Part shown: positions 206-38,118 of the stretch, in pieces
Position numbering within the stretch: position 1 is the stretch's first letter
Layout of the letters: each line of letters opens with the position of its first letter
Origin: Prevotella sp.
GTDB lineage: Bacteria > Bacteroidota > Bacteroidia > Bacteroidales > Bacteroidaceae
Assembly: GCA_017400455.1 (NCBI GenBank)
Contig: JAFPTC010000130.1
Span: forward strand, 1 to 53,212
Direction: 5' to 3'
Length of the DNA: 53,212 bases
Program-made: the position numbers and the translations under genes
Notes under the pieces: model-generated
Seen by the model: the letters and a program-made list of their open reading frames with translations, nothing else
Databases searched by the model: none
Told to the model about the DNA's origin: nothing

Positions 206-340
206 TCTACGGAGCCTCCCCAGAAATTTTTCTCACGCGAGATTTTTTCACGGGGAGCCTCCGCAGAAAAATTTCTCACGCGAGATTTTTTCACGGGAAG
301 GCTTCCCAGAAAAATTTCTCACGTGAGATTTTTTTTCAAC
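206..340. repeat. 43-bp alternating-palindrome array, 3 units
   Basis: Palindromic cores TCTCACGCGAGA (231-242 and 274-285) and TCTCACGTGAGA (317-328) are spaced exactly 43 bp apart. Between them lie GC-rich imperfect palindromes of GGAGCCTCC or GGGAAGGCTTCCC type, followed by T-runs. Related arrays lie at 7714-7768 and 38001-38098. The region from 92 to 372 contains no convincing gene; open frames across it only reflect the repeat. Confidence 0.85.
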
Positions 341-372
341 GCAAAAGCTGAGCTTTTCATGCGAAAAGTTTG

Positions 373-380
373 TAACTTTG
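373..380 (+). promoter_or_regulatory. -7 promoter element for the LytTR regulator
   Basis: TAACTTTG matches the Bacteroidota -7 consensus TAnnTTTG. It lies 28 nt before the ATG at 409, so the message would have a short leader. Confidence 0.65.
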
Positions 381-408
381 TGGCCTGAAAGAATAAGGAA
401 ATCAAGAC

Positions 409-1128
409 ATGACCCTGAACTGTATTATTATCGACGACGAGCCACTGGCCGTGCGGCTGCTGGAATCGTTTGTTACCAGGACGCCTGGACTGGCACTGCT
501 GGCCTCGTTTACTGACTCTGTGGAAGCAGCGGCTACGGTGAAGGAGGGACGCGCCGACCTGCTGTTCCTGGACATTCAGATGCCCGACCTCGACGGCATG
601 GAGCTGGCGCGCATGGTGCCGCCACAGACGCGAGTCATCTTCACCACCGCCTTTAAGGAGTATGCCTTCGAGAGCTATGAGGTGAAGGCGCTCGACTTCC
701 TGCTGAAGCCCATACGCTACAGCAAGTTCCTCTCAGCCATCGACAAGGCCCGCGAGTGGTTCAGCCTCCAGCCTCAGGGCGGCAGCGTGACGGCCCAGAA
801 CGACTCGGTGTTCATCCGCGTCGACGGCGAGCTGCGCCAGCTGCCCCTGTCGCAGATAGTGTATGTGAGCGGAATGAAAGACTATGTGCTGTTCTACGTG
901 GCTGGCGAGCACCGGGCGCTGATAACCCACATGACGATGAAAGCCGTGGAGGAGATGCTGCCTGCAGACCAGTTCCTGCGCGTCAGCCGCAGCTACATCG
1001 TGGCCACGCGCCACATACGCAAGGTAGACCGCAACGACTGTATCTACATCGGCGAGGAGATTATCCACGTCACCGAGGCCTACCAGCCGGCCTTCCAGGC
1101 CTATTTGACGCAGCGAATGAAGGGCTGA
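409..1128 (+). CDS. LytTR-family response regulator
   Basis: 239 residues, the usual length for LytR/AlgR-type two-component regulators. Residues 1-115 form a CheY-like receiver: acidic pocket D9-D10 (IIDDEP), phosphoacceptor D55 in LDIQMPDLDG, and conserved K100 in LLKPI. Residues 130-235 form a LytTR DNA-binding domain with the typical segment FLRVSRSYIVA near 189-199. Such proteins bind DNA when phosphorylated by a membrane sensor kinase. No kinase gene is in the window; it may lie to the left of the window or be encoded elsewhere. Target genes cannot be read from the sequence. The start is supported by the TAACTTTG element at 373-380. Confidence 0.93.
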   Translation: MTLNCIIIDDEPLAVRLLESFVTRTPGLALLASFTDSVEAAATVKEGRADLLFLDIQMPDLDGMELARMVPPQTRVIFTTAFKEYAFESYEVKALDFLLKPIRYSKFLSAIDKAREWFSLQPQGGSVTAQNDSVFIRVDGELRQLPLSQIVYVSGMKDYVLFYVAGEHRALITHMTMKAVEEMLPADQFLRVSRSYIVATRHIRKVDRNDCIYIGEEIIHVTEAYQPAFQAYLTQRMKG

Positions 1129-1183
1129 TAGCCAAAGTTACGTAATAATTCTTAATTCTTTCACGGATTCTTCTTTTTATTAT

Positions 1184-1191
1184 TATCTTTG
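1184..1191 (+). promoter_or_regulatory. -7 element almost touching the flippase-like gene
   Basis: TATCTTTG (TAnnTTTG) ends only 4 nt before the ATG at 1196. Transcription would begin at or beside the start codon, so the message should be leaderless or nearly so. Confidence 0.6.
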
Positions 1192-1195
1192 CAAC

Positions 1196-2215
1196 ATGAA
1201 GGAAAATACGAGCATTGTCCGGCTGACCTTGAAGATACTGCTGCCCCTGCTTTTGGGCGGAGCCATCCTGTACTGGATGTACCGAGGCTTCGACTTCGAG
1301 CGGGTGCGCCAGGTGGTGCTGCACGAGATGGACTGGACGTGGATGCTGCTCAGCTTCCCCTTTGGCATTCTGGCGCAGGCCTTGCGCGGTTGGCGCTGGC
1401 GTCAGACGCTGGAGCCCGTGGCAGGCAGACCCCGCAGCAGCGTCAGCGTGAACAGCATCTTCCTCAGCTACGCCGCCTCGCTGGTGGTGCCCCGTATTGG
1501 CGAGTTCACCCGTTGCGGCGTGTTGAAGCGTTGGGAGGGCATCTCGTTCACCAAGGCCCTGGGCACGGTGGTCACCGAGCGCATGGTCGACATGCTGCTC
1601 ATGCTGCTCATCGTGGGCGCCACGCTGCTGCTTGAGATGAGCACCTTTGGCACCTTCTTCCGCCAGACGGGCACCAGCCTGGGCGGCATCCTGAGCGGCT
1701 TCACCTGGGGTGGCTGGCTGGTCACGGCCATCTGCATCGTGGCCATGGGCATCCTGCTTTACATTCTTGTGCGCAACCTCTCTATATATAAAAAGGTGAA
1801 GACCACGCTGAGCGACATCTGGCAGGGTGTCACCTCGCTGCGCAACGTGCGCAGCCTGCCCTCGTTTCTGTTGATGACGGTGGGCATCTGGTTCTGCTAC
1901 TTCCTGCATTACTACCTGACCTTCTTCTGCTTCGACTTCACGGCCCATCTGGGTCTGTCGTGTGCCATGGTCACGTTTGTGGTGGGCAGCATTGCCGTCA
2001 TCGTGCCCACTCCCAACGGCGCCGGCCCCTGGCATTTTGCTGTGAAGACCATGCTTATCCTCTACGGCGTGCAGGCCGACCAGGCGCTCTACTTCGTGCT
2101 CATCGTCCACACCGTGCAGACGCTTCTGGTGGTTGTGCTTGGTGTCTATGCTTGGCTGCGGCTTGCATTTGTGAGGAGAGAGGAGAGGGGAGAGTGGAGA
2201 GAGGAGAGAGGTTAG
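1196..2215 (+). CDS. Flippase-like membrane protein (UPF0104/LPG synthase TM domain)
   Basis: 339 residues with about eight hydrophobic segments. The family signature is visible: VVPRIGEFTRCGVLKR near residue 100 followed by TVVTERMVDMLLML, and IAVIVPTPNGAGPWHFAV in the C-terminal third. Relatives (the transmembrane part of MprF, AglD, YbhN) move or modify lipid-linked substrates in the inner membrane; the substrate here is unknown. The last residues (REERGEWREERG) are encoded by a simple GAGAGG repeat and are probably not part of the ancestral protein. That repeat also forms one arm of the inverted repeat around the next gene. Confidence 0.85.
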   Translation: MKENTSIVRLTLKILLPLLLGGAILYWMYRGFDFERVRQVVLHEMDWTWMLLSFPFGILAQALRGWRWRQTLEPVAGRPRSSVSVNSIFLSYAASLVVPRIGEFTRCGVLKRWEGISFTKALGTVVTERMVDMLLMLLIVGATLLLEMSTFGTFFRQTGTSLGGILSGFTWGGWLVTAICIVAMGILLYILVRNLSIYKKVKTTLSDIWQGVTSLRNVRSLPSFLLMTVGIWFCYFLHYYLTFFCFDFTAHLGLSCAMVTFVVGSIAVIVPTPNGAGPWHFAVKTMLILYGVQADQALYFVLIVHTVQTLLVVVLGVYAWLRLAFVRREERGEWREERG

Positions 2216-2698
2216 TTTCCTCATTGACATGGGATTTCAATTTTCTATATTATGAATAATGACTTTTTCTATAAGAAACTGATAGCATATCAAAAGGCAA
2301 AAGAACTAACGAAGTATGTTTACTTTTTAGTTCGCAAATTTCCCACGTACGAAACTTATGCCATGAGCGACCAACTACGTCGGGCTGCTGTTTCTGTACC
2401 ATCAAATATTGCCGAAGGTATGGGCAGAATGAATAACAAAGACCGCGTGCGTTTTTTAGAATTCGCTTGTGGATCTCTTACAGAAGTCAATTGTCAATTG
2501 GACATAGCCCAATCACTTCAGTACATCACCGAAGAAGAATTATTGAAAGCAGAGGAGATGTCAGTTGAAGTAGGTAAACTGATGTCCGGACTAAGGAAAT
2601 CAATATTAGAGAAAGAAACATAATACTAACCATGAGAAGGATGTGGAAAAGTGGATAATACTTTATTAAGCAAAGCTATTCTCTCTCCTCTCTCCACT
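2193..2698. repeat. 18-bp inverted repeat flanking the S23-type gene
   Basis: AGTGGAGAGAGGAGAGAG at 2193-2210 has an exact reverse complement at 2681-2698. The two arms enclose only the four-helix-bundle gene. The left arm lies in the last codons of the upstream gene and the right arm lies just before pepD. Confidence 0.8.
2252..2623 (+). CDS. Four-helix-bundle protein (23S rRNA intervening sequence type, S23)
   Basis: 123 residues, all helical in character. It shows the S23/IVP family pattern: an aromatic-rich N-terminus (FYKKLIAYQKAKEL), the highly conserved DQLRRAAVSVPSNIAEG at about 45-61, and FLEFACGSLTEVNCQLDIA at about 71-89. The family was first found inside intervening sequences of 23S rRNA genes and also includes diversity-generating-retroelement accessory proteins; the molecular role of free-standing copies is unknown. 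The gene is clearly more AT-rich than its neighbours and is bounded by an 18-bp perfect inverted repeat, both suggesting later insertion. No ribosomal RNA sequence surrounds it. Confidence 0.88.
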   Translation: MNNDFFYKKLIAYQKAKELTKYVYFLVRKFPTYETYAMSDQLRRAAVSVPSNIAEGMGRMNNKDRVRFLEFACGSLTEVNCQLDIAQSLQYITEEELLKAEEMSVEVGKLMSGLRKSILEKET

Positions 2699-2712
2699 AA
2701 AACAAAAAAGCT

Positions 2713-4173
2713 ATGAACGAAATTCAGAACCTGAAGCCAGCATGCATCTGGCGCAACTTCTACAAACTGACGCAGGTGCCGCGTCCCAGCGGCCACCTGG
2801 AGAAGATTCAGCAGTTCCTGCTCGACTTTGGCAAGGAGTGCGGCGTCTATGCCGTGAAGGATCCTGCCGGCAACATCCACATGCGCAAGCCGGCCACGCC
2901 GGGCATGGAAAACCGCAAGGGCATCATCCTGCAGGCCCACATGGACATGGTGCCGCAGAAGACCCCCGAGTCGCAGCACAACTTCGAGACCGACCCCATT
3001 GAGCCGTGGATCGACGGCGAGTGGGTGAAGGCCAAGGGCACGACCCTCGGCGCCGACAACGGCCTGGGCGTGGCCTCGATCATGGCCATCATGGAAGACA
3101 AGAGCCTGAAGCACGGCCCCATCGACGCCCTCATCACCGCCGACGAAGAGACGGGCATGTATGGCGCCAACGACCTGCCCGAGGGCGAGCTGCAGGGCGA
3201 CATCCTGCTGAACCTCGACTCCGAGCACTGGGGCAAGTTCGTCATCGGTAGCGCCGGCGGCATCGACGTCACCGCCACCATGGGTTACAAGGAGGCCGAC
3301 ACCGACCCCGAGGACAAGGCCCTGCGCGTGACCATCAAGAACCTGCGCGGCGGCCATAGCGGCCTGGAGATTCACGAAGGCCGGGGCAACGCCAACAAAC
3401 TGATGGTGCAGCTGGTGCGCGAGGCCATTGAGGAGCTCGACGCCCGTCTGGCTTCGTGGCACGGCGGCAACATGCGCAACGCCATTCCCTTCAAAGCCGA
3501 GGTGGTGCTCACCCTGCCCGCCGAGAACGTGGAGGCACTGAAGGAGCTGGCCAACGACTGGAGGGAGACCTTCAACGACGAGTTCAAGATCATCGAGCCG
3601 CAAGGCATCGAGGTCATCGTAGAAGAAGTAGAGACGCCGAAGACCGAGCTGCCCGAGGAAATCCAGGACAACCTGGTCGACGCCATCTACGCCTGCCACG
3701 ACGGCGTCATCCGCTATATCCCCAGCTATCCCAACGTGGTCGAGACCTCCAGCAACCTGGCCATCATCGACATCGAGGGTGGCAACGCCGCCATTCGCAT
3801 CCTGGCCCGCAGCAGCCGCGAGGACATGAAGGACTATGTGGTGAAGACGCTCCAGAGCTGCTTCGCCATGGCCGGCATGAAGGTCGAGACGGCCGGCTCC
3901 TACGGCGGCTGGGATCCCAACCCCGACAGCGAGATCCTGCACCTGCTGCTGAAGGAATACAAGGAGCTCTTCGGCCAGGACGGCATCATCCAGGTGGACC
4001 ATGCCGGCCTTGAGTGCTCCGTCATCCTGGGCAAGTATCCGTGGCTCGACGTGGTCAGCCTCGGCCCAACGATGAAGTCGCCCCACACCACCACCGAGCG
4101 CGCCCTCATTGCCACCGTCGAGCCATTCTGGCAGCTGCTGAAGCAGACGCTGGAAGACGTGCCTGAAAAATAA
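2713..4173 (+). CDS. pepD: Aminoacyl-histidine dipeptidase (peptidase D, M20 family)
   Basis: 486 residues, full length for PepD. The two-zinc M20 centre is visible: H76 and D78 in QAHMDMVPQ, bridging D115 in TLGADNGLGVA, and E145-E146 in ADEETGMYG. A GGHSGLEIHEGRGN segment near residue 215 belongs to the dimerisation lid, and DHAGLECSV near the C-terminus fits the family. The enzyme cleaves Xaa-His and other dipeptides in the cytoplasm and helps supply amino acids from peptides. It stands alone and ends at a hairpin terminator shared with the convergent lipoprotein gene. Confidence 0.96.
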   Translation: MNEIQNLKPACIWRNFYKLTQVPRPSGHLEKIQQFLLDFGKECGVYAVKDPAGNIHMRKPATPGMENRKGIILQAHMDMVPQKTPESQHNFETDPIEPWIDGEWVKAKGTTLGADNGLGVASIMAIMEDKSLKHGPIDALITADEETGMYGANDLPEGELQGDILLNLDSEHWGKFVIGSAGGIDVTATMGYKEADTDPEDKALRVTIKNLRGGHSGLEIHEGRGNANKLMVQLVREAIEELDARLASWHGGNMRNAIPFKAEVVLTLPAENVEALKELANDWRETFNDEFKIIEPQGIEVIVEEVETPKTELPEEIQDNLVDAIYACHDGVIRYIPSYPNVVETSSNLAIIDIEGGNAAIRILARSSREDMKDYVVKTLQSCFAMAGMKVETAGSYGGWDPNPDSEILHLLLKEYKELFGQDGIIQVDHAGLECSVILGKYPWLDVVSLGPTMKSPHTTTERALIATVEPFWQLLKQTLEDVPEK

Positions 4174-4208
4174 GTGTGATAAAAGAATTCACGGCGAAAC
4201 CGGAAAGC

Positions 4209-4250
4209 AAGACAGGCAGGGGTAAGCTCACCTCTGCCTGTCTTAATAAA
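4209..4250. terminator. Bidirectional terminator between pepD and the Bor-like gene
   Basis: Stem AAGACAGGCAGGGG (4209-4222) pairs with CCTCTGCCTGTCTT (4231-4244), with one G-T pair and an 8-nt loop. It sits between two convergent genes. Confidence 0.75.
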
Positions 4251-4264
4251 CACAGCCTGCCTCG

Positions 4265-4594
4265 TCACTTCCTTGGTTTCTTATAATCAGCCGGCAGATA
4301 AAACTCGGTGGTTGTCGGCGTATAAATGCCCATTGTCACACCACCAACGATGCAGTCTACAAACGAGCGGTAGTTTTTCACCATGTAACTATTCATGCCA
4401 TTAGTATAGTCGGTGGCTTTTATCCGTTTACGTCCGAGCAAACCTCCAAGGAAATAACTATTGTGAATGGTTTTCACACGTACTACCGGATCTTCTAATT
4501 TCAAATCACCCACACATACTTTTGACGACTGGCAGGAGCCAAGCAGCAAGCAGAACATGACAACGCCCACTGCAACTGTTATTGTTCTTTTCAT
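4265..4594 (-). CDS. Small Bor-type outer-membrane lipoprotein
   Basis: 109 residues. The N-terminus is a lipoprotein signal (MKRT, hydrophobic core, lipobox LLGSC at 17-21). The remainder resembles the Bor/Iss family: IHNSYFLGGLLG in the middle and VDCIVGGVTMGIYTPTTTEFYLP at about 79-101, which aligns with the FVNGLLGFITLGIYTP region of phage lambda Bor. Bor is a surface lipoprotein linked to serum resistance; whether that role applies here is unknown. It follows the larger paralogue by 13 nt on the same strand and is probably co-transcribed with it. Confidence 0.8.
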   Translation of the reverse strand: MKRTITVAVGVVMFCLLLGSCQSSKVCVGDLKLEDPVVRVKTIHNSYFLGGLLGRKRIKATDYTNGMNSYMVKNYRSFVDCIVGGVTMGIYTPTTTEFYLPADYKKPRK

Positions 4595-4607
4595 AATGTC
4601 TATAGAA

Positions 4608-5453: not shown

Positions 5454-5544
5454 CCATGTGCAAACAGTCAAAAGTTTTTTTGCCATACGCAAATATCCTT
5501 TCTTGCCTATAGCATCCCTGATTCGGCATTTCTTAATGAAACGA

Positions 5545-5810
5545 AAGACGTGGGATGCTCTACTTCTCGCCTATCCCACGTGCGGGCTCTCGCATTGCCT
5601 TGCTCAGGATAAGCAACTCGAGTTAGCCCACGCCAAGCTATATTGCAAACAGCCCTTATCAGGCTCATACAATACGCCCAAAGTGGACGCTCCGGTTGCG
5701 CTTCTTCTGAGCTTGTGATTTGCGAGATCTGCACGTAGAAGAAAACGTTCGTAAACGTCCTTTACCAATGAAAATCCAACCCGCTACCCTCACAAGGGCT
5801 ATTCGAGTCG
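5545..5810 (-). ncRNA. Structured small RNA, candidate 6S RNA (Bacteroidales-1-like)
   Basis: No good reading frame exists here, yet a strong minus-strand promoter (TACCTTTG at 5815-5822) starts just upstream and a terminator stem ends at 5549-5580. The predicted 5' end, GACTCGAATAGCCC (5810 down to 5797), pairs with GGGCTAACTCGAGTT (5629 down to 5615). This closing helix brackets about 195 nt, close to the 6S RNA size. It is followed by small hairpins (TTGCT/AGCAA, TGCG/CGCA) and the terminator. 6S RNA mimics an open promoter and binds RNA polymerase. Identity rests on size, closing stem and context, not on an alignment. Confidence 0.65.
5549..5580 (-). terminator. Terminator stem of the small RNA
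   Basis: CGTGGGAT (5549-5556) pairs with ATCCCACG (5573-5580). On the minus strand the stem is followed by TCTTTCGTTTC, a broken U-tract. Confidence 0.7.
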
Positions 5811-5814
5811 GCTG

Positions 5815-5822
5815 CAAAGGTA
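5815..5822 (-). promoter_or_regulatory. -7 element of the small RNA promoter
   Basis: The minus strand reads TACCTTTG here. A CTTTGTTG -33 region lies about 16-20 bp upstream (around 5839-5846), giving one of the best Bacteroidota promoters in the window. Confidence 0.7.
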
Positions 5823-5913
5823 ATAAAAAAAAATGACACAACAAAGTTTATTTGGGAAAAATACACGTCAAAATAAAAAAAAGACGACACGACATTTTCT
5901 CTGCGAGTAAAGG

Positions 5914-6631: not shown

Positions 6632-6712
6632 GGCAAGACTGCTAATCCTCTTGCCACCGAGACAATTATGCATTATGAATTACAAATTATGCATTATGAA
6701 TTGTGCATTAAC
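6632..6712 (+). promoter_or_regulatory. corA leader hairpin and AT-rich direct repeats
   Basis: The stem GGCAAGA (6632-6638)/TCTTGCC (6649-6655) precedes two copies of a CATTATGAATT-type repeat (6668-6712). Similar ATTATGAATT spacers occur between genes in many Bacteroidota genomes. A regulatory role is only inferred. Confidence 0.35.
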
Positions 6713-6729
6713 CAAACGGATTAGCAACA

Positions 6730-7656
6730 ATGAAAACATTTTGGAACTTCCAAGGTGGGCTGAGCCAGCTACAGGAGTGGCAGCCCAATAGTTGGATTCA
6801 GGTGACCTGCCCCACAGAGGACGACCAGCACCAGCTGGAGGAGCAGTTTGGCATACCCGACTATTTCATCACCGACATCAGCGATACCGACGAGCGCGCC
6901 CGCTATGAGTATGACGACGGCTGGATGCTCATTATCCTGCGCATACCCTACGTCAAGGAGATACGCTCGCGCACACCCTATACCACCGTGCCCTTGGGCA
7001 TCATCCACAAGCGCGACGTGACCATCACCGTGTGCTACTACGAGACCAACATGATGATCGACTTCGTCTCCTATCAGCAGAAGCGCGGCGTAGGCTTCAC
7101 TGACTATGTGGACATGATTTTCCGCCTGTTCTACTCCTCGGCCGTGTGGTACTTGAAGCGACTGAAGCAGATTAACTCGCTCATAGACAAGGCCAAGCGC
7201 AATCTGGACCGCGACGTGAACAACGAGAGCCTCATTGGCCTGAGCCGCCTGCAGGACTCGCTGACCTACTTCCAGACCTCCATCCGTGGCAACGAGACGC
7301 TGCTTTCGAAGCTGAAGTTCAAGCTGCAGATTGACGAGCTGGACGCCGACCTGATTGAGGACGTGAACATCGAGATGACGCAGGCCCGCGAGACCACCGC
7401 CATCTACTCCGACATCCTGGAATCGACCATGGACACCTACAGCAGCATCATCAACAACAATATGAACACCGTGATGCGTACGCTCACTTCCGTGACCATC
7501 ATCATGATGTTCCCCACGCTCATTGCCTCGCTCTTTGGCATGAACCTGGTCAACGGCATGGAGGAAAAGCCCTTCGGCTTTGGCCTGGCGCTCATCATCA
7601 GTGTGGGCACGGCTGCCGCCGCCTGGTGGTACTTCCGCCACAAGCGGCTGGTGTAG
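6730..7656 (+). CDS. corA: CorA-family divalent cation (Mg2+) channel
   Basis: 308 residues, a normal CorA length. Residues 1-240 form the cytoplasmic funnel with long helices (SLIDKAKRNLDRDV near 150-163). Two C-terminal membrane helices follow, the first ending in the selectivity signature GMN at 270-272 (SLFGMNLVNG), the second at about 283-301, and a basic tail RHKRLV. The family forms pentamers that pass Mg2+ and sometimes Co2+ or Ni2+ down the electrochemical gradient. It is monocistronic with a long leader (6549-6729). A two-unit palindrome array follows the stop codon. Confidence 0.95.
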   Translation: MKTFWNFQGGLSQLQEWQPNSWIQVTCPTEDDQHQLEEQFGIPDYFITDISDTDERARYEYDDGWMLIILRIPYVKEIRSRTPYTTVPLGIIHKRDVTITVCYYETNMMIDFVSYQQKRGVGFTDYVDMIFRLFYSSAVWYLKRLKQINSLIDKAKRNLDRDVNNESLIGLSRLQDSLTYFQTSIRGNETLLSKLKFKLQIDELDADLIEDVNIEMTQARETTAIYSDILESTMDTYSSIINNNMNTVMRTLTSVTIIMMFPTLIASLFGMNLVNGMEEKPFGFGLALIISVGTAAAAWWYFRHKRLV

Positions 7657-7713
7657 CCCCAGGGAACGGGCGCAAGAGCCGCCGGAAACAGGCGGCAACG
7701 GGCGGTGAAAAAA

Positions 7714-7800
7714 TCTCACGTGAGAAATTTTTCTGCGGAGGCCTCCCGTGAAAATATCTCACGTGAGATTTTTTCACGGGAGGCCTCCGCAGAATTTTGG
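7714..7800. repeat. 43-bp alternating-palindrome array, 2 units
   Basis: TCTCACGTGAGA cores at 7714-7725 and 7757-7768 are 43 bp apart. A GGAGGCCTCC palindrome lies between them (7737-7746) and a second follows at about 7780-7789. The array separates corA from the 3' end of the truncated oxidoreductase. Confidence 0.85.
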
Positions 7801-7811
7801 GGCGTGTCGGG

Positions 7812-8015
7812 CTAAGCAGCGGGGCCCACCCCGTGGTAGTCATATTCCAGCCCTGGCAGCATCCATCCCCTGGGGGTGAGTCCGCCGCCGCAAACCTTGT
7901 CTCGCGGAAAGTCGGCATGGTCCACAATGAGGCAGTCTACGCCCCTCTGGCGCAGCAGGCTGCCGCAGGTGGCTCCGGCCGGTCCTCCTCCAATGATTAG
8001 CACTTCTGTTTCCAT
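7812..8015 (-). pseudogene. Truncated FAD-dependent oxidoreductase (geranylgeranyl-reductase type), N-terminus only
   Basis: 67 residues starting at METEVLIIGGGPAGATCG, the FAD-binding Rossmann start, followed by a second family motif FPRDKVCGGGLTP at about 40-52. Intact members are about 350-400 residues, so roughly 85 percent is missing. The frame stops directly before a palindromic repeat array (7714-7800). The promoter is intact: minus-strand TACCTTTG at 8025-8032 ends 9 nt before the ATG at 8015. The relic may still be transcribed. A TTG-started version would begin inside the promoter and is unlikely. Confidence 0.75.
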
Positions 8016-22327: not shown

Positions 22328-22436
22328 TGTTTATACTTGCCAGAAAATTCCTTTTCTTTATTGTCACATCTTTTCCATACTGCCAAGGAAAAGCTCGGAA
22401 AGTTTTCTTCGCAAGGGGAGGCGCCGCGTGAAATAA

Positions 22437-22448
22437 TCTCACGTGAGG
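22437..22448. repeat. Single degenerate copy of the TCTCACGTGAG palindrome
   Basis: TCTCACGTGAGG lies after GGCGCCGCGTGAAA, matching the flank of the 43-bp units found at 206-340, 7714-7800 and 38001-38110. Confidence 0.7.
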
Positions 22449-22650: not shown

Positions 22651-22703
22651 GGGCGGCCGCCCACATTAATAAGGGCGGCCGCCCTTATTAATGTGAGCGG
22701 GCG
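22651..22703. repeat. 34-bp perfect palindrome
   Basis: The sequence 22662-22695 equals its own reverse complement over all 34 bases, centred on GGGCGGCCGCCC and flanked by TTAATAA/TTATTAA. A second GGGCGGCCGCCC (22651-22662) abuts its left edge. No T-tract follows, so it is not a classical terminator. Confidence 0.85.
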
Positions 22704-24474: not shown

Positions 24475-26305
24475 AGTTTATTCGTCGGTTTTGTATTTCC
24501 GTGGCCTTGCGCTCGGAGGCCTCCGAGAGCTGGCCTTTGAGATACTGCTCCATGATGAGGCCGCCGATGGGCACGCCGTAGGTGGCTCCCCAGCCGCCGT
24601 TCTCCACGTAGACGGCCACGGCAATCTTAGCCGAGTCCATGGGGGCGAAGCCCATGAAGACCGAGTGGTCGTGGCCACGGTTCTGGGCCGTGCCGGTCTT
24701 GCCGCAAGGAGCAAAGTCGTAGTGGGCCAAGGCCTTGCAGGTGCCGCCGAGCGCGGCCGAGCGCATGCCCTTGACTATGAGGTCGTAGGCCCACTTCGGG
24801 GCCTTGGTGTAGCGTCGATGGGTGTAGAGGGTGTCGAGCGGCTCGTTCTCAATCTGGCGCACCACGTGGGGGGTGACGAAGTAGCCACGGTTGGCAATGG
24901 TGGCGCCCAGGTTGGCAATCTGCAGGGGCGTGGCGTTCACCTCGCCCTGGCCGATGGCTATGGAGATGATGGTCAGCGCGTTCCAGCCGCTCTTGTAGGC
25001 ATTGTCGTAGAACTGGGCGTTGGGAATGAGGCCGCGCTTCTCGCCAGGCAGGTCGACGCCCAGCGGATAGCCGAAGCCCATGCTCACCAGATAGTCGCGC
25101 CAGGTGTTCATGGCCGTCTGCACGGTGCCGTACTTAGTGGTGTTGCCCAGCATGTGGTACAGGCCCCAGCAGAAGAAGCCGTTGCACGAGGTGCTGATGG
25201 CGGGCACCAGCGGCAGGGGCGAGCCGTGGCCGTGGCAGCCCACGCGCAGGCCTCGGAACACGAAGCCGTGGTAGCAGGGGTAAGGGGTCTTGTCGGTGAT
25301 GACGCCCTCGCTCAGGAAGGTCAGGCCCTGGGTGGTCTTGAACGTAGAACCGGGGGGATACTGGCCCATGATGCTGCGGTTGAGCAGGGGCTTCCAGGGG
25401 TCGAGGCTGAGGTCGTGGTGGCTCTTCGAGCGCTGGCGGCCCACCATCATGTGGGGGTCGTAGCTGGGCGAGCTGACCATGCAGAGCACTTCGCCGGTGC
25501 TGGGCTCGATGGCCACGATGCTGCCAATCTTGCCCTCAAGCAGACGCTCGCCCAGGGCCTGCAGGTCGAGGTCGATGCCCAGCGTGAGGTTCTTGCCGGG
25601 CACGGGCTTGCGGTCGAGGGCACCGTTCTGGTATTTGCCCTGCACGCGGCCGTGGGCATCGCGCAAAAGAATCTCGACGCCCTTCTCGCCGCGCAGCTGC
25701 TTCTCGTAGAAGCGCTCCACGCCCAGCTTGCCAATGTAGTCGCCGGGCTGGTAGTAGTCGTCGGCCTCGATGTCGGCTGGCGACACCTCGGCCACATCGC
25801 CCAGCACGTGGGCGGCATAGGCGTACTCATACTGGCGGACGCTGCGCCGCTGGACGTAGAAACCGGGGAAGCGGTAGGCTTTTTCCTGGAAGAGGCTGAA
25901 GTCTTGGTCGGAGAGCTGGCCAATGAGCAGCTGCTGGGTGTAGCGGGAGTAGCCGGGGTTGCGACGGCGGTCGTGCATGGTGGCCACGTAGCGGTCGAAG
26001 TCCTCGCGGCTGATGCCCAGCGTCTGGCAGAACTCCAGGGTGTCGAAGTGGCCTCGGGCTTCGTTCTCCACCACCATGATGTCGTAGCTGGGCTGGTTGT
26101 AGACCATGAGGCGTCCCTGGCGGTCGGTGATGACGCCGCGTGAGGGATAGTCAATTTTCTTGAGGAAGGCGTTGGAGTCGGCGTTCTTCTTGTAGTCGTC
26201 GCTCATGAGCTGGAGCGTGAACAGGCGGATGATGTAGACCACCACAATGACGGTGGCCACTCCGGCAATGACGAATTTCCTGTATTCCAGCTCACGCTCT
26301 TTCAT
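24455..26305 (-). CDS. mrdA: Penicillin-binding protein 2 (elongation transpeptidase)
   Basis: 616 residues. A short cytoplasmic tail and membrane anchor (FVIAGVATVIVVVYIIRLF, 11-29) precede the pedestal domain, which contains SRGVITDRQGRLMVYN (55-70). The transpeptidase triad is complete: S320-T-F-K323, S373-C-N375, and K536-T-G. The enzyme cross-links peptidoglycan for lateral wall growth. It lies between mreD and rodA, the standard Bacteroidota order, and overlaps rodA by 20 bp. Confidence 0.96.
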   Translation of the reverse strand: MKERELEYRKFVIAGVATVIVVVYIIRLFTLQLMSDDYKKNADSNAFLKKIDYPSRGVITDRQGRLMVYNQPSYDIMVVENEARGHFDTLEFCQTLGISREDFDRYVATMHDRRRNPGYSRYTQQLLIGQLSDQDFSLFQEKAYRFPGFYVQRRSVRQYEYAYAAHVLGDVAEVSPADIEADDYYQPGDYIGKLGVERFYEKQLRGEKGVEILLRDAHGRVQGKYQNGALDRKPVPGKNLTLGIDLDLQALGERLLEGKIGSIVAIEPSTGEVLCMVSSPSYDPHMMVGRQRSKSHHDLSLDPWKPLLNRSIMGQYPPGSTFKTTQGLTFLSEGVITDKTPYPCYHGFVFRGLRVGCHGHGSPLPLVPAISTSCNGFFCWGLYHMLGNTTKYGTVQTAMNTWRDYLVSMGFGYPLGVDLPGEKRGLIPNAQFYDNAYKSGWNALTIISIAIGQGEVNATPLQIANLGATIANRGYFVTPHVVRQIENEPLDTLYTHRRYTKAPKWAYDLIVKGMRSAALGGTCKALAHYDFAPCGKTGTAQNRGHDHSVFMGFAPMDSAKIAVAVYVENGGWGATYGVPIGGLIMEQYLKGQLSEASERKATEIQNRRINYGTDDR

Positions 26306-32398: not shown

Positions 32399-32438
32399 GA
32401 TAGTATGTAGATTTTTTGCCTTTCTTGTTAAAGAGTTA

Positions 32439-32446: not shown

Positions 32447-32466
32447 CGGATTTTCTTTCACTTTCT

Positions 32467-32498: not shown

Positions 32499-32542
32499 CA
32501 TCAATGAACTATTTTGTATCAATATTAAAAGCTTAAAAACAC

Positions 32543-34561
32543 ATGAAACTGAAACTTTTCGCAACTGCGCTGGCTTTTGCAGGTGCACTTTCCGTTCAGG
32601 CTCAGACCGTCATGAACGTGAACACGAAAAAACTGGGCGCAGCCGTATCGCCAACGATGTACGGTCTGTTCTTCGAGGACATTAACTTCGCTGCTGACGG
32701 CGGCCTCTATGGCGAGCTGGTGAAGAACCGCTCGTTCGAGTTTGCCCAGCCCTACATGGGATGGCGCGTCTTTGGCAATGTCGAGCTGCGTGCCGACGGC
32801 CCCTTCGAGCGCTGCCCCCACTATGTGGTGCTCAACAACCCCGGCCACCGCGAGCGTCGCACCGGCCTGGAGAACGAGGGCTACTTCGGCATTGGCGTTG
32901 AACAGGGCAAGGAATACCGCTTCAGCGTGTGGGCCAAGGCCCCTAAGGGCAACTCCCAGCTGCGTGTGCAGCTCATCAACGTGAGCACGATGGATGAGCA
33001 CCAGGAATTTGTCCAGCAGAAGCTCGACATCACCTCCTCCGAATGGAAAAAGTACGAGCTGGTCATCAAGTCGCCCCGCACCGAACCCAAGGCCCAGCTG
33101 CGCATCTTCCTCAGCAGCGGCAACCCCGCCTGCCTGGAACACATCTCGCTCTTCCCTGTCGATACCTATAAGGGTCGCAAGAACGGCCTGCGCAAGGACT
33201 TGGCCCAGGCGCTTGAGGACATCCATCCCGGCGTGTTCCGCTTCCCCGGCGGCTGCATCGTCGAGGGCACCACGCTCGACACCCGCTACCAGTGGAAGAA
33301 CACCATCGGCCCGGTGGAGAACCGTCCCACCAACCGCAACCGCTGGGAGGACACCTTCGACTACCGCTACTTTGCCGACTACTACCAGAGCTACGGCCTG
33401 GGCTTCTTTGAGTTCTTCCAGCTCTGCGAGGACATCGGTGCCGAGCCGCTGCCCGTGCTCAGCGTGGGCCTGGCCTGCCAGTTCCAGAACGGACTCGACG
33501 CCCATGCCCAGATGGACCAGCTGCAGCCCTTCATCGACGACTGCCTCGACCTCATTGAGTTTGCCAATGGTCCCGCCGACAGCGAGTGGGGCAAGAAGCG
33601 TGTCGAGATGGGCCATCCCGAGCCCTTCAACATGAAGTACATCGGCGTGGGCAACGAGCAGTGGGACACCCCCTACTTCGAGCGCCTGAAGCCCTTCGTC
33701 GAGGCCATCCGCGCCAAGTACCCCGACATCAAGATCATCGGCACCAGCGGCCCCGACAGCGAGGGCAAGATGTTTGAAAAGGGCTGGGAGGCCATGCGCG
33801 CCCAGAAGGCCGACCTGGTCGACGAGCACTTCTATCGTCCCGAGGCCTGGTTCCTGGCCACGCCCGAAGCCAAGGAGCGCTACGGCAACTGCGGTGCCAT
33901 GCGCTATGACAGCTATTCCCGCAAAGGCCCGAAGGTGTTTGCCGGCGAATATGCCTGCCACGGACGCGGCAAGAAGTGGAACCACTTCGAGACCTCGCTC
34001 TATGAGGCTGCCTTCATGACCGGCCTGGAGCGCAATGCCGACGTGGTCGAGATGGCCACTTATGCACCCCTCTTCGCCCATGTCGAGGGCTGGCAGTGGC
34101 GTCCCGACATGATTTGGTACGACAACCTCAAGATGTTCAAGTCCGTCAGCTACTACGTGCAGCAGCTCTATGCCATGAACAAGGGTACCAACGTGCTCAG
34201 CATCACCACTCCCGACGCCAAGAACAAGAAGGGTGTGCCCGTGGCTGGACTGGAAGGCCAGAACGGCCTCTTTGCCTCCTCCGTCTTTGACGCCACCACC
34301 GGCGAGGTGCTCATCAAGGTGGTCAACACCTCGAAGCAGCCCCAGGCCGTCACCATCAACCTGCAGGGCATGAAGGGCGAGCACACCGCTCAGACCCTGA
34401 CCCTGAGCCACAACGGTTCGATGGACGACGAGAACACCATCGCCGAGCCCGAGAAGATCACCCCGAAGCCCGGCACCGTGCAGCTGCAGGCCGACAAGAA
34501 GCAGGCTATCCTCAGCGACCAGCTGCCTGCCATGAGCTTCCGCCTGTACCGCGTGAAATAA
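32543..34561 (+). CDS. GH51 alpha-L-arabinofuranosidase, secreted
   Basis: 672 residues. The signal peptide ends at VQA/QT (about 20). An N-terminal strand region begins the barrel (YGLFFEDINFAADGGLYGELV), then a carbohydrate-binding module of CBM4-like type (about 85-205). FRFPGGCIVEG (232-242), acid/base E372 in GVGNEQWD, and nucleophile E469 in VFAGEYACHGRG mark clan GH-A/GH51. The C-terminal beta-domain follows. It releases L-arabinose from arabinan, arabinoxylan or similar polymers in the periplasm or outside. It is divergent from the receiver and cellobiose phosphorylase genes. Confidence 0.95.
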   Translation: MKLKLFATALAFAGALSVQAQTVMNVNTKKLGAAVSPTMYGLFFEDINFAADGGLYGELVKNRSFEFAQPYMGWRVFGNVELRADGPFERCPHYVVLNNPGHRERRTGLENEGYFGIGVEQGKEYRFSVWAKAPKGNSQLRVQLINVSTMDEHQEFVQQKLDITSSEWKKYELVIKSPRTEPKAQLRIFLSSGNPACLEHISLFPVDTYKGRKNGLRKDLAQALEDIHPGVFRFPGGCIVEGTTLDTRYQWKNTIGPVENRPTNRNRWEDTFDYRYFADYYQSYGLGFFEFFQLCEDIGAEPLPVLSVGLACQFQNGLDAHAQMDQLQPFIDDCLDLIEFANGPADSEWGKKRVEMGHPEPFNMKYIGVGNEQWDTPYFERLKPFVEAIRAKYPDIKIIGTSGPDSEGKMFEKGWEAMRAQKADLVDEHFYRPEAWFLATPEAKERYGNCGAMRYDSYSRKGPKVFAGEYACHGRGKKWNHFETSLYEAAFMTGLERNADVVEMATYAPLFAHVEGWQWRPDMIWYDNLKMFKSVSYYVQQLYAMNKGTNVLSITTPDAKNKKGVPVAGLEGQNGLFASSVFDATTGEVLIKVVNTSKQPQAVTINLQGMKGEHTAQTLTLSHNGSMDDENTIAEPEKITPKPGTVQLQADKKQAILSDQLPAMSFRLYRVK

Positions 34562-34592
34562 GGACAGACGCTTCTAAGCGCCAGGAAGAACG

Positions 34593-34654
34593 GCGCAAAA
34601 ACAATTTAGGAGGCTTCCAAAAAGTTTTTGGAGCCTCCTAAATTGTTTGCGCGC
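34593..34654. terminator. Long hairpin after GH51
   Basis: A 28-31 nt arm (34593-34623) pairs with 34625-34652 with only small bulges; the apex is AAAAAG/TTTTT. GGAGGCTTCC/GGAGCCTCC inside the stem resembles the GC-rich palindrome of the 43-bp repeat family. Confidence 0.75.
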
Positions 34655-34696
34655 TACTCGCTTTTGCAGATAAGTATAAGCCGTATCAGCGGGCTA

Positions 34697-35119
34697 TCAT
34701 TTACGTCCCTTTATGCTGATCTCAATATAATCCTTTTTCGCCATGCCGTTGTCGCTGAAGGTGATTTCATTGCTGGTGATGTTGCGACGAAGCCACGAAT
34801 CGGGATTGGCCTTTATTTTTTCGCTGATGTAAGAACGCGGATGGTTAATCCAATCCTTTGTGAAGTCGAGGAGCATATAGCATGGCATGTCGCCGGCACC
34901 TTCATAATAGTCGTGCGTCCAGTGCATGGCAATCACGCAGACGTGGAATTTGCCGCTGGGAACCTCTTTCGACACCAGCGATCTGCTCTCCAGCTTTTTC
35001 TCAGTCAGCCGTGACCATTTGAAATAGTCGGGGAACATGGTCGATTGCGATTCCTTCCCTTTCATGTAAGAGGAGAAGCGTGCGTAGTCCTTTTCGGGTA
35101 TGCACTTGATGTAGGGCAC
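34697..35119 (-). CDS. Hypothetical protein in the accessory patch
   Basis: 140 residues if the GTG at 35119 is used. No ATG lies closer to the promoter, and the minus-strand TATATTTG (35137-35144) is 17 nt upstream. The sequence is polar with several Trp and Tyr (PDYFKWSRLTEKK, HWTHDYYEGAGDMPCYMLLDF) and ends IEISIKGRK. It has no signal peptide and no recognised motif. AT content is higher than in the flanking housekeeping genes, as in the adjacent restriction system. I do not recognise it. Confidence 0.6.
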   Translation of the reverse strand: MPYIKCIPEKDYARFSSYMKGKESQSTMFPDYFKWSRLTEKKLESRSLVSKEVPSGKFHVCVIAMHWTHDYYEGAGDMPCYMLLDFTKDWINHPRSYISEKIKANPDSWLRRNITSNEITFSDNGMAKKDYIEISIKGRK

Positions 35120-35305
35120 CCAACGCTACTTCGATGCAAATATACGAATAGTTTTCCAATTATAGCGAATTTTGAACGAAAAAGTTCAAAAACACCACAA
35201 AGTGGGGCCCGAGTTGCGCCGCACTTTGGTTCTTTCGGGCCTATCCGTTATTTCTCTTTGCATAGTAGGGGCGAGTAAATAAATGGGCGGCTTCGCAGAA
35301 ATATC

Positions 35306-35315
35306 CTCACGTGAG
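35306..35315. repeat. Single degenerate CTCACGTGAG copy
   Basis: CTCACGTGAG preceded by GGCGGCTTCGCAGAAATAT, similar to the 43-bp repeat unit. It lies upstream of the methyltransferase promoter at the left border of the restriction-modification patch. Confidence 0.55.
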
Positions 35316-35429
35316 TTTTATGTGTAAACTCGTTATATTGTTCAGATGGGCTTTAGGTAAAATCGGGCTGGGAAAAGTTAAAAAAATAATAAACTACAGA
35401 ATTCTTATCCTGTTTATCCCTTTTTGTTG

Positions 35430-35437
35430 TAATTTTG
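35430..35437 (+). promoter_or_regulatory. -7 element next to the methyltransferase start
   Basis: TAATTTTG ends 5 nt before the ATG at 35443, giving a probably leaderless message. It rules out the longer frame starting at 35311. Confidence 0.65.
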
Positions 35438-35442
35438 CAGTC

Positions 35443-36282
35443 ATGTTCGACAAAATAAAAGAAGTTTTGGGTGTTCCGTTTTATGAATGTAAGTACGGGA
35501 TGATTTACAATATGGATTGTGCAAAAGCACTTTCTTTGTTGACCGATGCTTTTTTCTCTTCCACCATCACCAGTCCACCTTACAATATAGGAAAATCATA
35601 CGAGGACGTAATGCCGCTTACTGAATATATCAGTTGGCTTGAGGGCATTTCTGAGAATATTTTCAGGCTTACGAAACCTGATGGAAGTTTCTTGTTAAAT
35701 GTCGGCTATCTCTCTGTTCCGGAAAAGGGACGGGCTGTTCCTATTTCGTACCTGTTGTGGGACAAGTCTCCGTTCTTCCTCAATCAGGAAATTGTTTGGC
35801 ATTATGGAGCAGGTGTGTCCGCAAAGAAGTATCTTTCACCACGCAATGAAAAAATACTGTGGTATGTGAAGGATAAAGATAATTACACGTTTAATCTTGA
35901 TGCCATCAGAGATCCCGATGTGAAATACCCAAATCAAAAAAAGAATGGAAAACTTCGGTGTAACACTATTGGCAAGAATCCTTCCGACGTGTGGGACATA
36001 GCAAAGGTCACATCGGGAAAAGATCGTTCTTCCGTGGAACGAACGGCTCATCCCGCCCAATTTCCTGAGGACTTGATAAAACGTTTGATGCTGGGCTTTA
36101 CCAATTCAGAAGACTTAATACTGGAACCTTTCTTGGGCAGTGGTACGGTAGGGGCTGTGGCTGTAGAACTCAATAGGCGTTTCCTTGGCTTTGAGATTGA
36201 TAAGTCTTTCTGCGAAATTGCAAAGAAACGCATCTTCCATAAAATTCAAGAAAAAGAGTCAATGCTCGCCTTTGGGGAATAG
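35443..36282 (+). CDS. Type II DNA methyltransferase (beta class, N4-cytosine or N6-adenine)
   Basis: 279 residues from the ATG at 35443. Catalytic motif IV TSPPYN (43-48) precedes the SAM-binding motif I EPFLGSGT (228-235), the beta-class order. HPAQFPEDLIKRL (203-215) fits the motif X region. It methylates the recognition site of the restriction enzyme encoded head-on at 36302-36910; m4C would match the ScaI prototype, but SPPY also occurs in m6A enzymes. GC content is far below the average of the window, suggesting horizontal acquisition. It shares a terminator with the endonuclease gene. Confidence 0.92.
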   Translation: MFDKIKEVLGVPFYECKYGMIYNMDCAKALSLLTDAFFSSTITSPPYNIGKSYEDVMPLTEYISWLEGISENIFRLTKPDGSFLLNVGYLSVPEKGRAVPISYLLWDKSPFFLNQEIVWHYGAGVSAKKYLSPRNEKILWYVKDKDNYTFNLDAIRDPDVKYPNQKKNGKLRCNTIGKNPSDVWDIAKVTSGKDRSSVERTAHPAQFPEDLIKRLMLGFTNSEDLILEPFLGSGTVGAVAVELNRRFLGFEIDKSFCEIAKKRIFHKIQEKESMLAFGE

Positions 36283-36292
36283 AAAACGTTTT

Positions 36293-36325
36293 TCGGGCAC
36301 TTCACCTTGAAGTGCCCGACTTTTT
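36293..36325. terminator. Bidirectional terminator between methyltransferase and endonuclease
   Basis: TCGGGCACTTCA (36293-36304) pairs perfectly with TGAAGTGCCCGA (36308-36319), followed by CTTTTT. The stop codon of the opposing endonuclease gene (36302-36304) lies inside the stem. Confidence 0.8.
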
Positions 36326-36910
36326 ATCTGCTTGGTAAAGTGTAATCAGCTTTTTTTCGTAGGCCTGTGGCGACAGATGGGCCTGTTGGCCCGTGCTTGC
36401 TTTCTGTGCAATCCAATCTCTGTGCTCCAAATAACCGAATCGGATAAGTGTTATCTTGGGCTTCTTGTTTTGCTTTGAGAATTTTTCAAAGTTAATAGCT
36501 AAGTAATAGCCATTCTTATCTTTTGCCTCACTATCGGATGATGGCTGGGCATAACTCCGATTGGCAAATATCTTATTCTTATTAGATGAGGCCTTAATCT
36601 CTATGCCCATGGCAGGATTCTGTATATGATGGATGTCCTTTTCACTTTTCGCCTCTCCAACTTTGTAGATTTCGGGGTACTTCAGTGACAGATTGTGGGC
36701 TACTAATTCGTGCAAAAAGAAACTCATTATCTGAGGCGATGGGAATATTTCTTTGCCAATGGAAAAGGATCCTATTTTTGAATTAAAAATATCTTCCCAT
36801 GATTGCATCACAGTTTCAACAATCTCCTTCTTCAGTGGATGCTTGTTGATGAGTTTTGTAGTTAGGGCCAGCCATTTTTCTTCTGGTACTCCTTCGTAAG
36901 GTGATTTCAT
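36302..36910 (-). CDS. Type II restriction endonuclease, ScaI-like
   Basis: 202 residues. The start SPYEGVPEEKWLALTTKLINKHPL and FPSPQIMSFFLHELVAHNL (56-74) recall the ScaI endonuclease family. A PD-(D/E)xK-type centre can be placed at D92 in EKDIHHI and E104-x-K106 in GIEIKASS, followed by FANRSYAQP. ScaI cuts AGTACT. The family call is from remembered patterns, so the specificity is tentative. It overlaps the controller gene by 4 bp (ATGA type), forming a C-R operon that converges on the methyltransferase. Low GC. Confidence 0.8.
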   Translation of the reverse strand: MKSPYEGVPEEKWLALTTKLINKHPLKKEIVETVMQSWEDIFNSKIGSFSIGKEIFPSPQIMSFFLHELVAHNLSLKYPEIYKVGEAKSEKDIHHIQNPAMGIEIKASSNKNKIFANRSYAQPSSDSEAKDKNGYYLAINFEKFSKQNKKPKITLIRFGYLEHRDWIAQKASTGQQAHLSPQAYEKKLITLYQADKKSGTSR

Positions 36911-37152
36911 TTTGTTATTCTTTCTTCAAATTTGTTGATGATGTCAATTAAAGATATGCCTAAGGCTGTGCAAATCTGCCTCAATTCAATCAGGTCAAGC
37001 CGTCTCTCGCACGTCTCTATCTTACTGATAATTGCTTGTTGAACAGATAGCATAGAGGCTAATTGCTCCTGCGTAATCTGACGTGATTCGCGTTCTTGGC
37101 GTATGATACCAATCAAAATACGATATTGCTTGTTGTAAATACTCTTTTCCAT
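36907..37152 (-). CDS. XRE-type controller protein of the restriction system
   Basis: 81 residues from the ATG at 37152. A helix-turn-helix covers about 24-45 (QITQEQLASMLSVQQAIISKIE), with a dimerisation tail LRQICTALGISLIDIINKF. Size and position match C proteins, which delay and then boost endonuclease expression after entry into a new host. The promoter TACTTTTG (minus strand, 37161-37168) ends 8 nt before the ATG, so the message is nearly leaderless. A palindrome TACATGTA overlaps the promoter. Confidence 0.88.
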   Translation of the reverse strand: MEKSIYNKQYRILIGIIRQERESRQITQEQLASMLSVQQAIISKIETCERRLDLIELRQICTALGISLIDIINKFEERITK

Positions 37153-37160
37153 AATTGATA

Positions 37161-37174
37161 CAAAAGTACATGTA
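37161..37174 (-). promoter_or_regulatory. C-R operon promoter with TACATGTA palindrome
   Basis: The minus strand reads TACTTTTG at 37161-37168. TACATGTA (37167-37174) overlaps its upstream edge by 2 bp, where a controller protein could bind and repress or activate. Confidence 0.5.
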
Positions 37175-37289
37175 ATAATGCGATATACCAAAATAGAATA
37201 TTCCTATGGTTTTTTTTGTCAATTTCCGCGCTTGGGATGTAAATAATGAACATTCTGATGGGGCCCGATGGTTTTTTTGTTCCAAATGC

Positions 37290-37320
37290 TTGCTGTTTAG
37301 GCTGTTATTTGCTATCTTTG
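37290..37320 (+). promoter_or_regulatory. Promoter of the lipoprotein gene
   Basis: TTG (37290-37292), 20 nt, TATCTTTG (37313-37320). The likely ATG is 78 nt downstream at 37399; frames starting before the promoter are unlikely. Confidence 0.6.
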
Positions 37321-37398
37321 CACCAAGAAAACATAATGGAAAATGGCTATATAGGCTTATTAATCAACCCAAAACATTCACCTTTCAACAAAAAGCTT

Positions 37399-37971
37399 AT
37401 GAAAAAAACTTATCAGGCACTGATGTGCATGGCGGGCCTCGCGATAGTGGTGGCCTGCGGCGGGAATGGAAGCAAAAACGCAGCTCCAGAAGAAGCCGCT
37501 GCACCGGCGGCACAGACCACTGAGGCCGCTGCCCCAGAGACACCAGCCCCTGAGACACCAGCCAGCAGCGGGGCTATGACCGTAGACGAGTTCTCGGCCC
37601 AGCTGCAGGAGTTTTGCGGCGTGGCACCCATCATCAGCGACAAAATGACGAAGATTCTGGTGCGCAAGGATGCCGAGAACGACTTCTTTATCGGCTCGCC
37701 CGTGACTGATGACATCGACGGCGAGAGCGTGCAGCGCGACTATTTCAATGCCTTTGCCAAGGTGGCCGACGGCAACAGCATCTACGGCTTCCACATGGAC
37801 CAGTCGCGAGGCACAGATGCCTTTAAGAACTACGACGACTATGTGAAGTTCATCAAAGCCAACGGCGACTACAACAAGGCCACCTATGGCTTCGACTACA
37901 AGGGCAAGCCCGTCAGTGTCTATTGTTCAGTATCCTTTGGCGATTTCGGATTACGCGTCAAGGGCGAGTAA
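37399..37971 (+). CDS. Lipoprotein with Ala/Pro/Glu linker, unknown
   Basis: 190 residues from the ATG at 37399, where MKKTYQALMCMAGLAIVVACGG gives a lipoprotein signal with Cys at about 20. A low-complexity linker (AAPEEAAAPAAQTTEAAAPETPAPETPASSG, about 27-58) leads to a compact domain of about 130 residues with EFSAQLQEFCGVAPIISDKM, YDDYVKFIKANGDY and VSVYCSVSFGDFGLRVKGE. Two cysteines in the domain could form a disulfide. No family recognised. It is followed by the three-unit repeat array. Confidence 0.8.
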   Translation: MKKTYQALMCMAGLAIVVACGGNGSKNAAPEEAAAPAAQTTEAAAPETPAPETPASSGAMTVDEFSAQLQEFCGVAPIISDKMTKILVRKDAENDFFIGSPVTDDIDGESVQRDYFNAFAKVADGNSIYGFHMDQSRGTDAFKNYDDYVKFIKANGDYNKATYGFDYKGKPVSVYCSVSFGDFGLRVKGE

Positions 37972-37982
37972 ATTCATGGGGG

Positions 37983-38118
37983 TGGCGCCCCATGAAAATT
38001 TCTCACGTGAGATTTTTTTCTGGGAGGCCTTCCCGTGAAAATTTCTCACGTGAGATTTTTTTCTGGGAAGGCTCCGCGTGAAAATTTCTCACGTGAGAAA
38101 TTTTCACGCGGAGCCTCG
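37983..38118. repeat. 43-bp alternating-palindrome array, 3 units
   Basis: TCTCACGTGAGA cores at 38001-38012, 38044-38055 and 38087-38098 are spaced exactly 43 bp. GGGAGGCCTTCCC and GGGAAGGCTCC lie between, and GCGGAGCCTCGC follows. The array sits between convergent genes. Confidence 0.88.

Follow-up and report, generated by a model that had tools for sequence, protein, structure and literature searches.

The window analysed here is the whole 53,212-nucleotide stretch of contig JAFPTC010000130.1, from the Prevotella sp. assembly GCA_017400455.1, and it contains three short palindromic arrays with an exact 43-bp period. Array 1 (206..340) has three 12-bp cores (231-242, 274-285 and 317-328) separated by two GC-rich spacers of 31 bp, and its final core stops 80 bp upstream of a LytTR response-regulator gene (409-1128, + strand; Response_reg and LytTR). 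Array 2 (7690..7795), situated downstream of a CorA-family gene (6730-7656, +), has two cores (7714-7725 and 7757-7768) and perfect GGAGGCCTCC palindromes at 7737 and 7779, and is predicted to form a long hairpin. Array 3 (37978..38116) has cores at 38001, 38044 and 38087 with GC-rich palindromes beyond the outermost of them, and sits in a convergent gap, the neighbouring 3' ends being at 37971 (+) and 38186 (-). The core sequence is TCTCACGTGAGA; cores 231 and 274 read TCTCACGCGAGA, one mismatch away. The core positions and spacing that the initial annotation gave for these arrays were confirmed, with Tandem Repeats Finder (TRF) reporting a period of 43 at each of them. Two degenerate single units had also been proposed. 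The first (22413..22448) has its core at 22437-22448 with one mismatch and a GC-rich stretch to the left; the second (35285..35316), which adjoins a DNA methylase/ScaI-type endonuclease gene pair, has its core at 35305-35316 rather than from 35306, and was omitted from the cluster census because that core has two mismatches. A/T tracts are less regular in both single units than in the arrays. Rfam models at gathering score had no match within the window.

A 43-bp unit typically consists of a 21-bp arm (TTTTTTCT...) and a 22-bp arm (TTTTTTCAC...). A single block of about 21.5 bp recurs with its orientation flipped each time, head-to-head and tail-to-tail, and arms of these two lengths, joined in these two ways, therefore place a dyad every 21.5 bp. 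The head-to-head junction gives the near-invariant dyad TCTCACGTGAGA with A/T tracts on either side, and the tail-to-tail junction a GC-rich dyad that is free to vary; the typical 31-base spacer reads TTTTTT-CAC-GGGAAGGCCTCCC-AGA-AAAAATT or the reverse complement, with variants. The alternation of two palindromes had been noticed from the outset, and their centres do lie 21.5 bp apart; the exact second palindrome, GGAGGCCTCC, is nevertheless restricted within the window arrays to its two positions in array 2, the remaining spacers being variants, and a third exact copy at 24515 has no core beside it.

Conservation of the core was assessed by a spacer-first census, which avoids selecting by core and accepted spacers within two mismatches of five typed consensus sequences. 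The 95 spacers obtained have 190 sides, of which 143 carry an exact core, 19 a core with one mismatch, and 28 a sequence with 2-12 mismatches, as expected at array ends. In the set of 71 internal spacers, no core position exceeds 0.11 bit of entropy save position 8 (0.37-0.46) and, in the right-hand core, position 12 (0.42), while spacer positions reach values as high as 1.0; the core is thus far better conserved than the spacer.

Palindromy also continues beyond the terminal core. In 52 of 120 flanks, against 5.5 expected, a palindrome with at least 5/7 pairs has its centre 21, 21.5 or 22 bp out, and in 15 of 120, against 0.8, one with at least 6/7 pairs does, the expected counts having been taken from places further out. 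Thirteen of these 15 are centred at 21.5 bp, and 13 distinct 12-mers are represented among the 15. The flank pair total at 21.5 bp is 562 versus 506 in permuted flanks (a value reached in 0 of 1000 permutations), and at single positions the raised pairing comprises A-T, C-G, G-C and T-A types; no rise is seen in the totals at 19.5, 20.5, 22.5 and 23.5 bp, though a few single columns there are raised. Because these varied outer palindromes stay in phase, phase and palindromy often persist despite a changed sequence.

The family is dispersed through the assembly, which comprises 2,535,534 bases in 160 contigs and is 71% complete: the exact core occurs in 323 copies (0 for the pattern written backwards), and TCTCACGYGAGA has 334 forward-strand matches (reversed control 0). 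A sample of 738,177 bases (hereafter 738 kb), made up of the window and further stretches on contigs partly picked for carrying copies, contains 238 strand-occurrences of the exact 12-mer (119 sites) where 0.10 would be expected. It holds 61 clusters with 138 cores in all, the clusters having one (12), two (27), three (17), four (4) or five (1) cores each. Exact phasing and variable copy number, both put forward by the initial annotation, are evident in this sample: core-to-core spacing is 43 bp in 75 of 77 intervals and 42 bp in the other two, each of which lacks one base inside the spacer. About 165 arrays are extrapolated for the genome, scaling by exact cores (119 in clusters, 323 in the assembly). 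The statement that the arrays are always intergenic has to be softened, since 58 of the 61 clusters fall outside the open reading frames (ORFs) called by a home-made gene finder and three fall inside; two of these three are in weak short ORFs of 72 and 95 aa, and the third (L069:3005), which has one mismatch and lacks the A/T tracts, is in a 670-aa gene and looks like a chance match. Random phase, general placement in genes and restriction to the window, outcomes named in advance as counting against the family, are not what the 61 clusters display. In full-text literature that leaves out most subscription papers, the papers matching the core sequence had titles unrelated to bacterial repeats, and among the records listed for palindromic or intergenic repeats in Prevotella, Bacteroides or Bacteroidetes we found no prior description.

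The position of the arrays relative to genes was analysed over gaps of at least 100 bp, leaving out 10 orphan two-mismatch matches, five edge clusters and the three clusters in called ORFs. Convergent gaps carry an array in 18 of 40 cases, codirectional gaps in 25 of 114 and divergent gaps in 10 of 54, and the early remark that they often lie between convergent 3' ends is upheld (18/40 versus 35/168 other gaps; Fisher p 0.004). In the codirectional gaps 19 arrays are closer to the 3' end and six closer to the 5' end. The median distance from array to 3' end is 55 bp, against 79 bp when positions within those gaps are randomised (so low a value arose in 0.75% of permutations), and only three arrays come within 100 bp of any start codon where 13.7 are expected (a count as low in 0 of 2000 permutations). 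This placement fits promoter avoidance together with a 3' side that is either preferred or tolerated.

Outside this assembly the phased family is scarce. Among 71 genomes of the same genus the core occurs 0-3 times per genome (backwards control 0-1), and it is absent from 47 same-order genomes belonging to other families. The search for cores at 43-bp phase in this and related genomes, which had been recommended as a check, returned 194 pairs with up to two mismatches in this assembly and none across 397 genomes of the genus. A search of GTDB contigs, a collection from which the assembly's own records may be excluded, recovered cores paired at 42-44 bp from two metagenome-assembled genomes (MAGs), labelled Tannerellaceae (four stretches) and Odoribacteraceae (one). 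The arrays in these MAGs are long, with the same dyad and near variants of it spaced at 21 bp (49 intervals), 22 bp (8) and, twice, 63 bp; those of the Tannerellaceae MAG include TTTCACGTGAGA. On one Tannerellaceae stretch (L112) direct repeats of 99 bp, 90% alike, at 6640-6738 and 7268-7366, bracket the palindrome array; its flanks are shared with the arrays of two further stretches (L111 and L115), and the L112 array therefore seems to lie within a larger repeat.

Relatives were ranked by the corA-DUF349 region, for which 279 of 398 genomes could be scored. Two near relatives, G059 and G298, carry another palindrome, GGCAGCGGCCGCTGCC (family B), in 177 and 57 copies respectively; G144 and G235 have two copies each, near contig starts and possibly misbinned, and the other 36 of 40 genomes, including the present one, have none. 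Eight G059 loci fetched for this palindrome show six 44-bp pairs, one 22-bp pair and one single copy, and 12 G298 loci show six 44-bp pairs and six single copies; of the 50 copies listed for G298, 22 belong to 44-bp pairs. Midway between the paired copies of G059 an imperfect dyad, GGCGGCGTTCGCTGCC, is often found. The word CGCTGCC recurs at 22 bp in 29 (G059) and 32 (G298) intervals and at 44 bp in 10 and 10, over 12 loci each, with two exceptions (45 and 63 bp) and with both strands counted, so that the intervals are not independent. Set beside the core family, the GGCAGCGGCCGCTGCC family indicates that one sequence family gives way to another from a species to its neighbour, with the spacing coming again to about two helical turns. 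A further G298 repeat, AAAGTCAACGCC-N10-14-GGCGTTGACTTT (family A; 137 copies in G298, 16 in G059, two in the present assembly and none in 37 others), was rejected as an instance of the same architecture; it is a single hairpin seen within longer repeats.

We read the arrays as a species-specific family resembling bacterial interspersed mosaic elements (BIMEs), with dyads spaced for a dimeric DNA-binding protein and with strong predicted hairpins at mRNA 3' ends, and we put the probability of this reading at roughly 0.43, somewhat short of even. The core dyad would be the binding site of the dimer, and the two-turn spacing would place successive dimers on one face of the helix, where they could bind cooperatively. 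Arrays may persist toward the 3' ends of genes, where promoters would be left undisturbed; the very stable hairpins that read-through would place on transcripts there might act as transcriptional stops or as barriers to 3' exonucleases. The initial annotation had suggested either a DNA-binding array or tandem RNA hairpins such as elements related to repetitive extragenic palindromes (REPs) or transcription attenuators, and had advised looking for a REP-associated tyrosine transposase (RAYT); the phasing, the variable copy number, the mostly intergenic spread over the genome, the near-invariant core and the stable predicted hairpins are in keeping with its proposal, while no RAYT-like transposase was found in the 71%-complete assembly.

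Several results weigh against this interpretation. No binding protein for the core was identified. In the flanks, 68 of 120 fall below 5/7 pairs, and exact phase could also come from recent copying of a few master units; the varied end palindromes nevertheless keep phase. The preference for 3' ends is not seen at the shortest range, where the 22 arrays with a 3' end no more than 40 bp away are not clearly above the 18.3 of random placement, and divergent gaps are occupied in 10 of 54 cases. Over 36 mapped orthologous gaps, a G298 repeat is present in one of six that carry an array here and in five of 30 that do not; arrays are therefore not tied to conserved sites, and the idea that the families of the present genome and of G298 share sites, as they do in the corA gap, failed. 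The repeat midway in the 44-bp pairs of G298 shares the word GGCAGCGG without forming a clear dyad. When dyads of any sequence were scanned for, in runs of at least four, the sample of the present genome gave 21 runs (0 in three shuffles) and the five MAG loci four; 1 Mb of G298 gave a single run, the fetched parts of G059 (80 kb), G197 (80 kb) and G144 (36 kb) gave none, and 20 other relatives (9-20 kb each) yielded one low-complexity run. By the scan's definition of a run the looser G059 arrays are passed over; from the sparseness of runs, clear dyad arrays are uncommon in the genus as sampled. Finally, a replacement comparison gave no clear sign that arrays take the place of other terminators.

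The main rival, which does not exclude protein binding and which we consider possible though not favoured, is a selfish non-autonomous mobile repeat, like a miniature inverted-repeat transposable element (MITE) or a REP, whose transposase has been lost or lies outside the assembly; the 3' placement would then reflect tolerance, and the phase recent copying. The restriction of both the core and its 43-bp pairs to one species has the appearance of a burst, and the differing occupancy of orthologous gaps agrees with mobility. Inverted 9-mers and 10-mers across 60 arrays are in slight excess (5 versus 2.0, p 0.03, and 4 versus 1.0, p 0.02), and in G298 a family B-like element adjoins a Y1 transposase ORF, apparently truncated (L212:1290-1866). 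Conversely, the 71%-complete assembly has no Y1_Tnp match and its 738-kb sample no multi-copy genes, though binning may lose such genes; direct 6-10-mers around the 60 arrays, whose ends are fuzzy, are not in excess; and there is no constant leader or tail, the commonest 9-mer 40-140 bp out, TACCTTTGC, occurring in nine of the 120 flanks but also in 13 of 142 gaps that lack an array. Conservation of the core far above that of the spacer is likewise not what a purely selfish repeat leads one to expect. The relatives have one (G298) and two (G059) Y1 matches; a single match per genome was examined, and neither lies between copies of the array families. The one in G059 (L213:1330-2060) has GCCCCGGAGGGGCGAC-type repeats on both sides, unlike the arrays, and looks like an ordinary REP/RAYT unit. 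Carriage by phages or plasmids was considered and rejected: array 3 has no match in either, and viral contigs contain no paired cores, with two single core matches that have no second core in the stretch fetched.

Comparison with described repeats leads to a mixed result. REPs and BIMEs are portrayed as short, mostly intergenic palindromes in more than 100 copies, with regular spacing and alternating orientation (PMC2817692; PMC8266576). The present arrays are similarly abundant, extragenic and regularly spaced, with 21/22-bp blocks in alternating orientation. They differ in that the tag GTAG/CTAC, the only tag type considered, is seen in none of the 61 clusters (from core to core plus 10 bp on each side), in that no Y1 transposase was found in the 71%-complete assembly, and in that their building blocks are short, near-perfect dyads at 21.5 bp, of which one is almost invariant; they thereby offer a test of the origin of a REP-like family where a RAYT is not evident. 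The BrickBuilt and 464/PgRS MITEs of Porphyromonas gingivalis are, according to PMC4596501, species-restricted, intergenic and built on internal tandem repeats of 23 or 41 nt, BrickBuilt having a leader and a tail with terminal inverted repeats, direct repeats, and 19 copies in one strain. The arrays share the species restriction, the intergenic position and the tandem structure, but are alternating dyads in about 165 places, without constant leader, tail or direct-repeat excess. Pneumococcal BOX (boxA-boxBn-boxC) is described in PMC3049150 as a modular dispersed hairpin element whose internal module number varies, and the same text reports BOX, RUP, SPRITE and insertion sequences as over-represented between convergent genes and takes this bias as a mark of mobile, parasitic elements. 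Our arrays are also dispersed, predicted to form hairpins, variable in unit number and biased toward convergent gaps, a likeness that speaks for the selfish-repeat explanation; BOX, however, combines unlike modules with fixed ends, whereas here the whole array derives from one inverted block.

That the arrays are tandem bidirectional transcription terminators or stabilisers of mRNA 3' ends appears unlikely to us. Their frequency in convergent gaps and on the 3' side would suit such a role, as would the predicted RNA folds (-57.6 to -88.9 kcal/mol; z -8.2 to -11.9 over four folds), with stems of at least 22 bp in two of the three window arrays. The pattern A6-TCTC-ACGT-GAGA-T6 gives, on either strand, a hairpin with U's after it, and array 3 has four terminator-like matches against 0.8 in shuffles, three of the four being one nested hairpin. 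Neither terminators nor RNA hairpins, however, require an invariant 12-bp core or a two-turn phase, and the occupied divergent gaps and the lack of clear replacement of other terminators, both given above, also speak against this role.

Sites for a ParB/Noc-type protein, comparable to parS or Noc-binding sites, were considered because of the CACGTG centre of the core, and seem very improbable. The parS site has the same CACGTG centre and a half-site GTGAAAC, which the half-site GTGAGA of the core resembles; the arrays likewise form many chromosomal palindromes, possibly dimer-bound, and the Tannerellaceae arrays contain TTTCACGTGAGA. Noc is stated to bind sites scattered round the chromosome (PMC4331003). 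Against this, a single match to the ParB helix-turn-helix (HTH) was found in each of the 13 genomes searched, the incomplete present assembly among them, and the HTH stretch is identical by reading in this carrier species and in G298, which has no 43-bp core pair; the arrays are also helically phased, and four parS-like patterns are missing from the 738 kb. Regular tandem repeats of about 43 bp could also recall a clustered regularly interspaced short palindromic repeat (CRISPR) locus, or a chance or assembly artefact, but spacers that are alike and palindromic instead of unique, the dispersal over the assembly, with a reversed control of 0 there, and the 238 strand-occurrences against 0.10 expected make both negligible.

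A broader proposal goes beyond this species, and we regard it as doubtful. Bacteroidales may carry an unnamed class of repeats, namely arrays that keep a two-turn pitch (21, 21.5 or 22 bp) and in which neighbouring species have swapped the recognition sequence wholesale. What suggests it is the two-turn spacing found with TCTCACGTGAGA in one species, with GGCAGCGGCCGCTGCC in two neighbours, and with TCTCACGTGAGA again in MAGs labelled as two other families. Were this the case, a fast-evolving trans-acting protein or protein family would bind, and perhaps copy, helix-phased sites over the whole chromosome, a logic comparable to that of a dispersed centromere or a nucleoid-organising array; and if it is geometry and not sequence that is conserved, the arrays would provide a handle on a hidden DNA-binding or DNA-copying system in Bacteroidales.

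A few further features were noted. The single unit at 35285..35316 is at the edge of the methylase/endonuclease pair (35320-36910), which consists of N6_N4_Mtase (35320-36282) and RE_ScaI (36302-36910; E 1.1e-82) and was assigned to an atypical codon class by the home-made gene finder. Beside array 2 is a 67-aa ORF (7812-8015, -) that begins METEVLIIGGGPAGA, which we take to resemble the N-terminus of an FAD-dependent oxidoreductase; if the ORF is real, the array 2 gap is convergent. Some gaps with arrays also hold a CCCC-rich repeat (CCCCACCCC, CCCCTCCCC), which is present in the window at about 95-150; CCCCACCCC occurs in eight of 120 array flanks (40-140 bp out) versus none of 142 array-free gaps. 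A second palindrome family, unlike the array core in sequence, is represented at 22651..22702 by GGGCGGCCGCCC with TTAATAA at a 22-bp period (TRF), and more intergenic copies with similar flanks are found in the same genome at L023:6627, L029:3219 and L054:8395.

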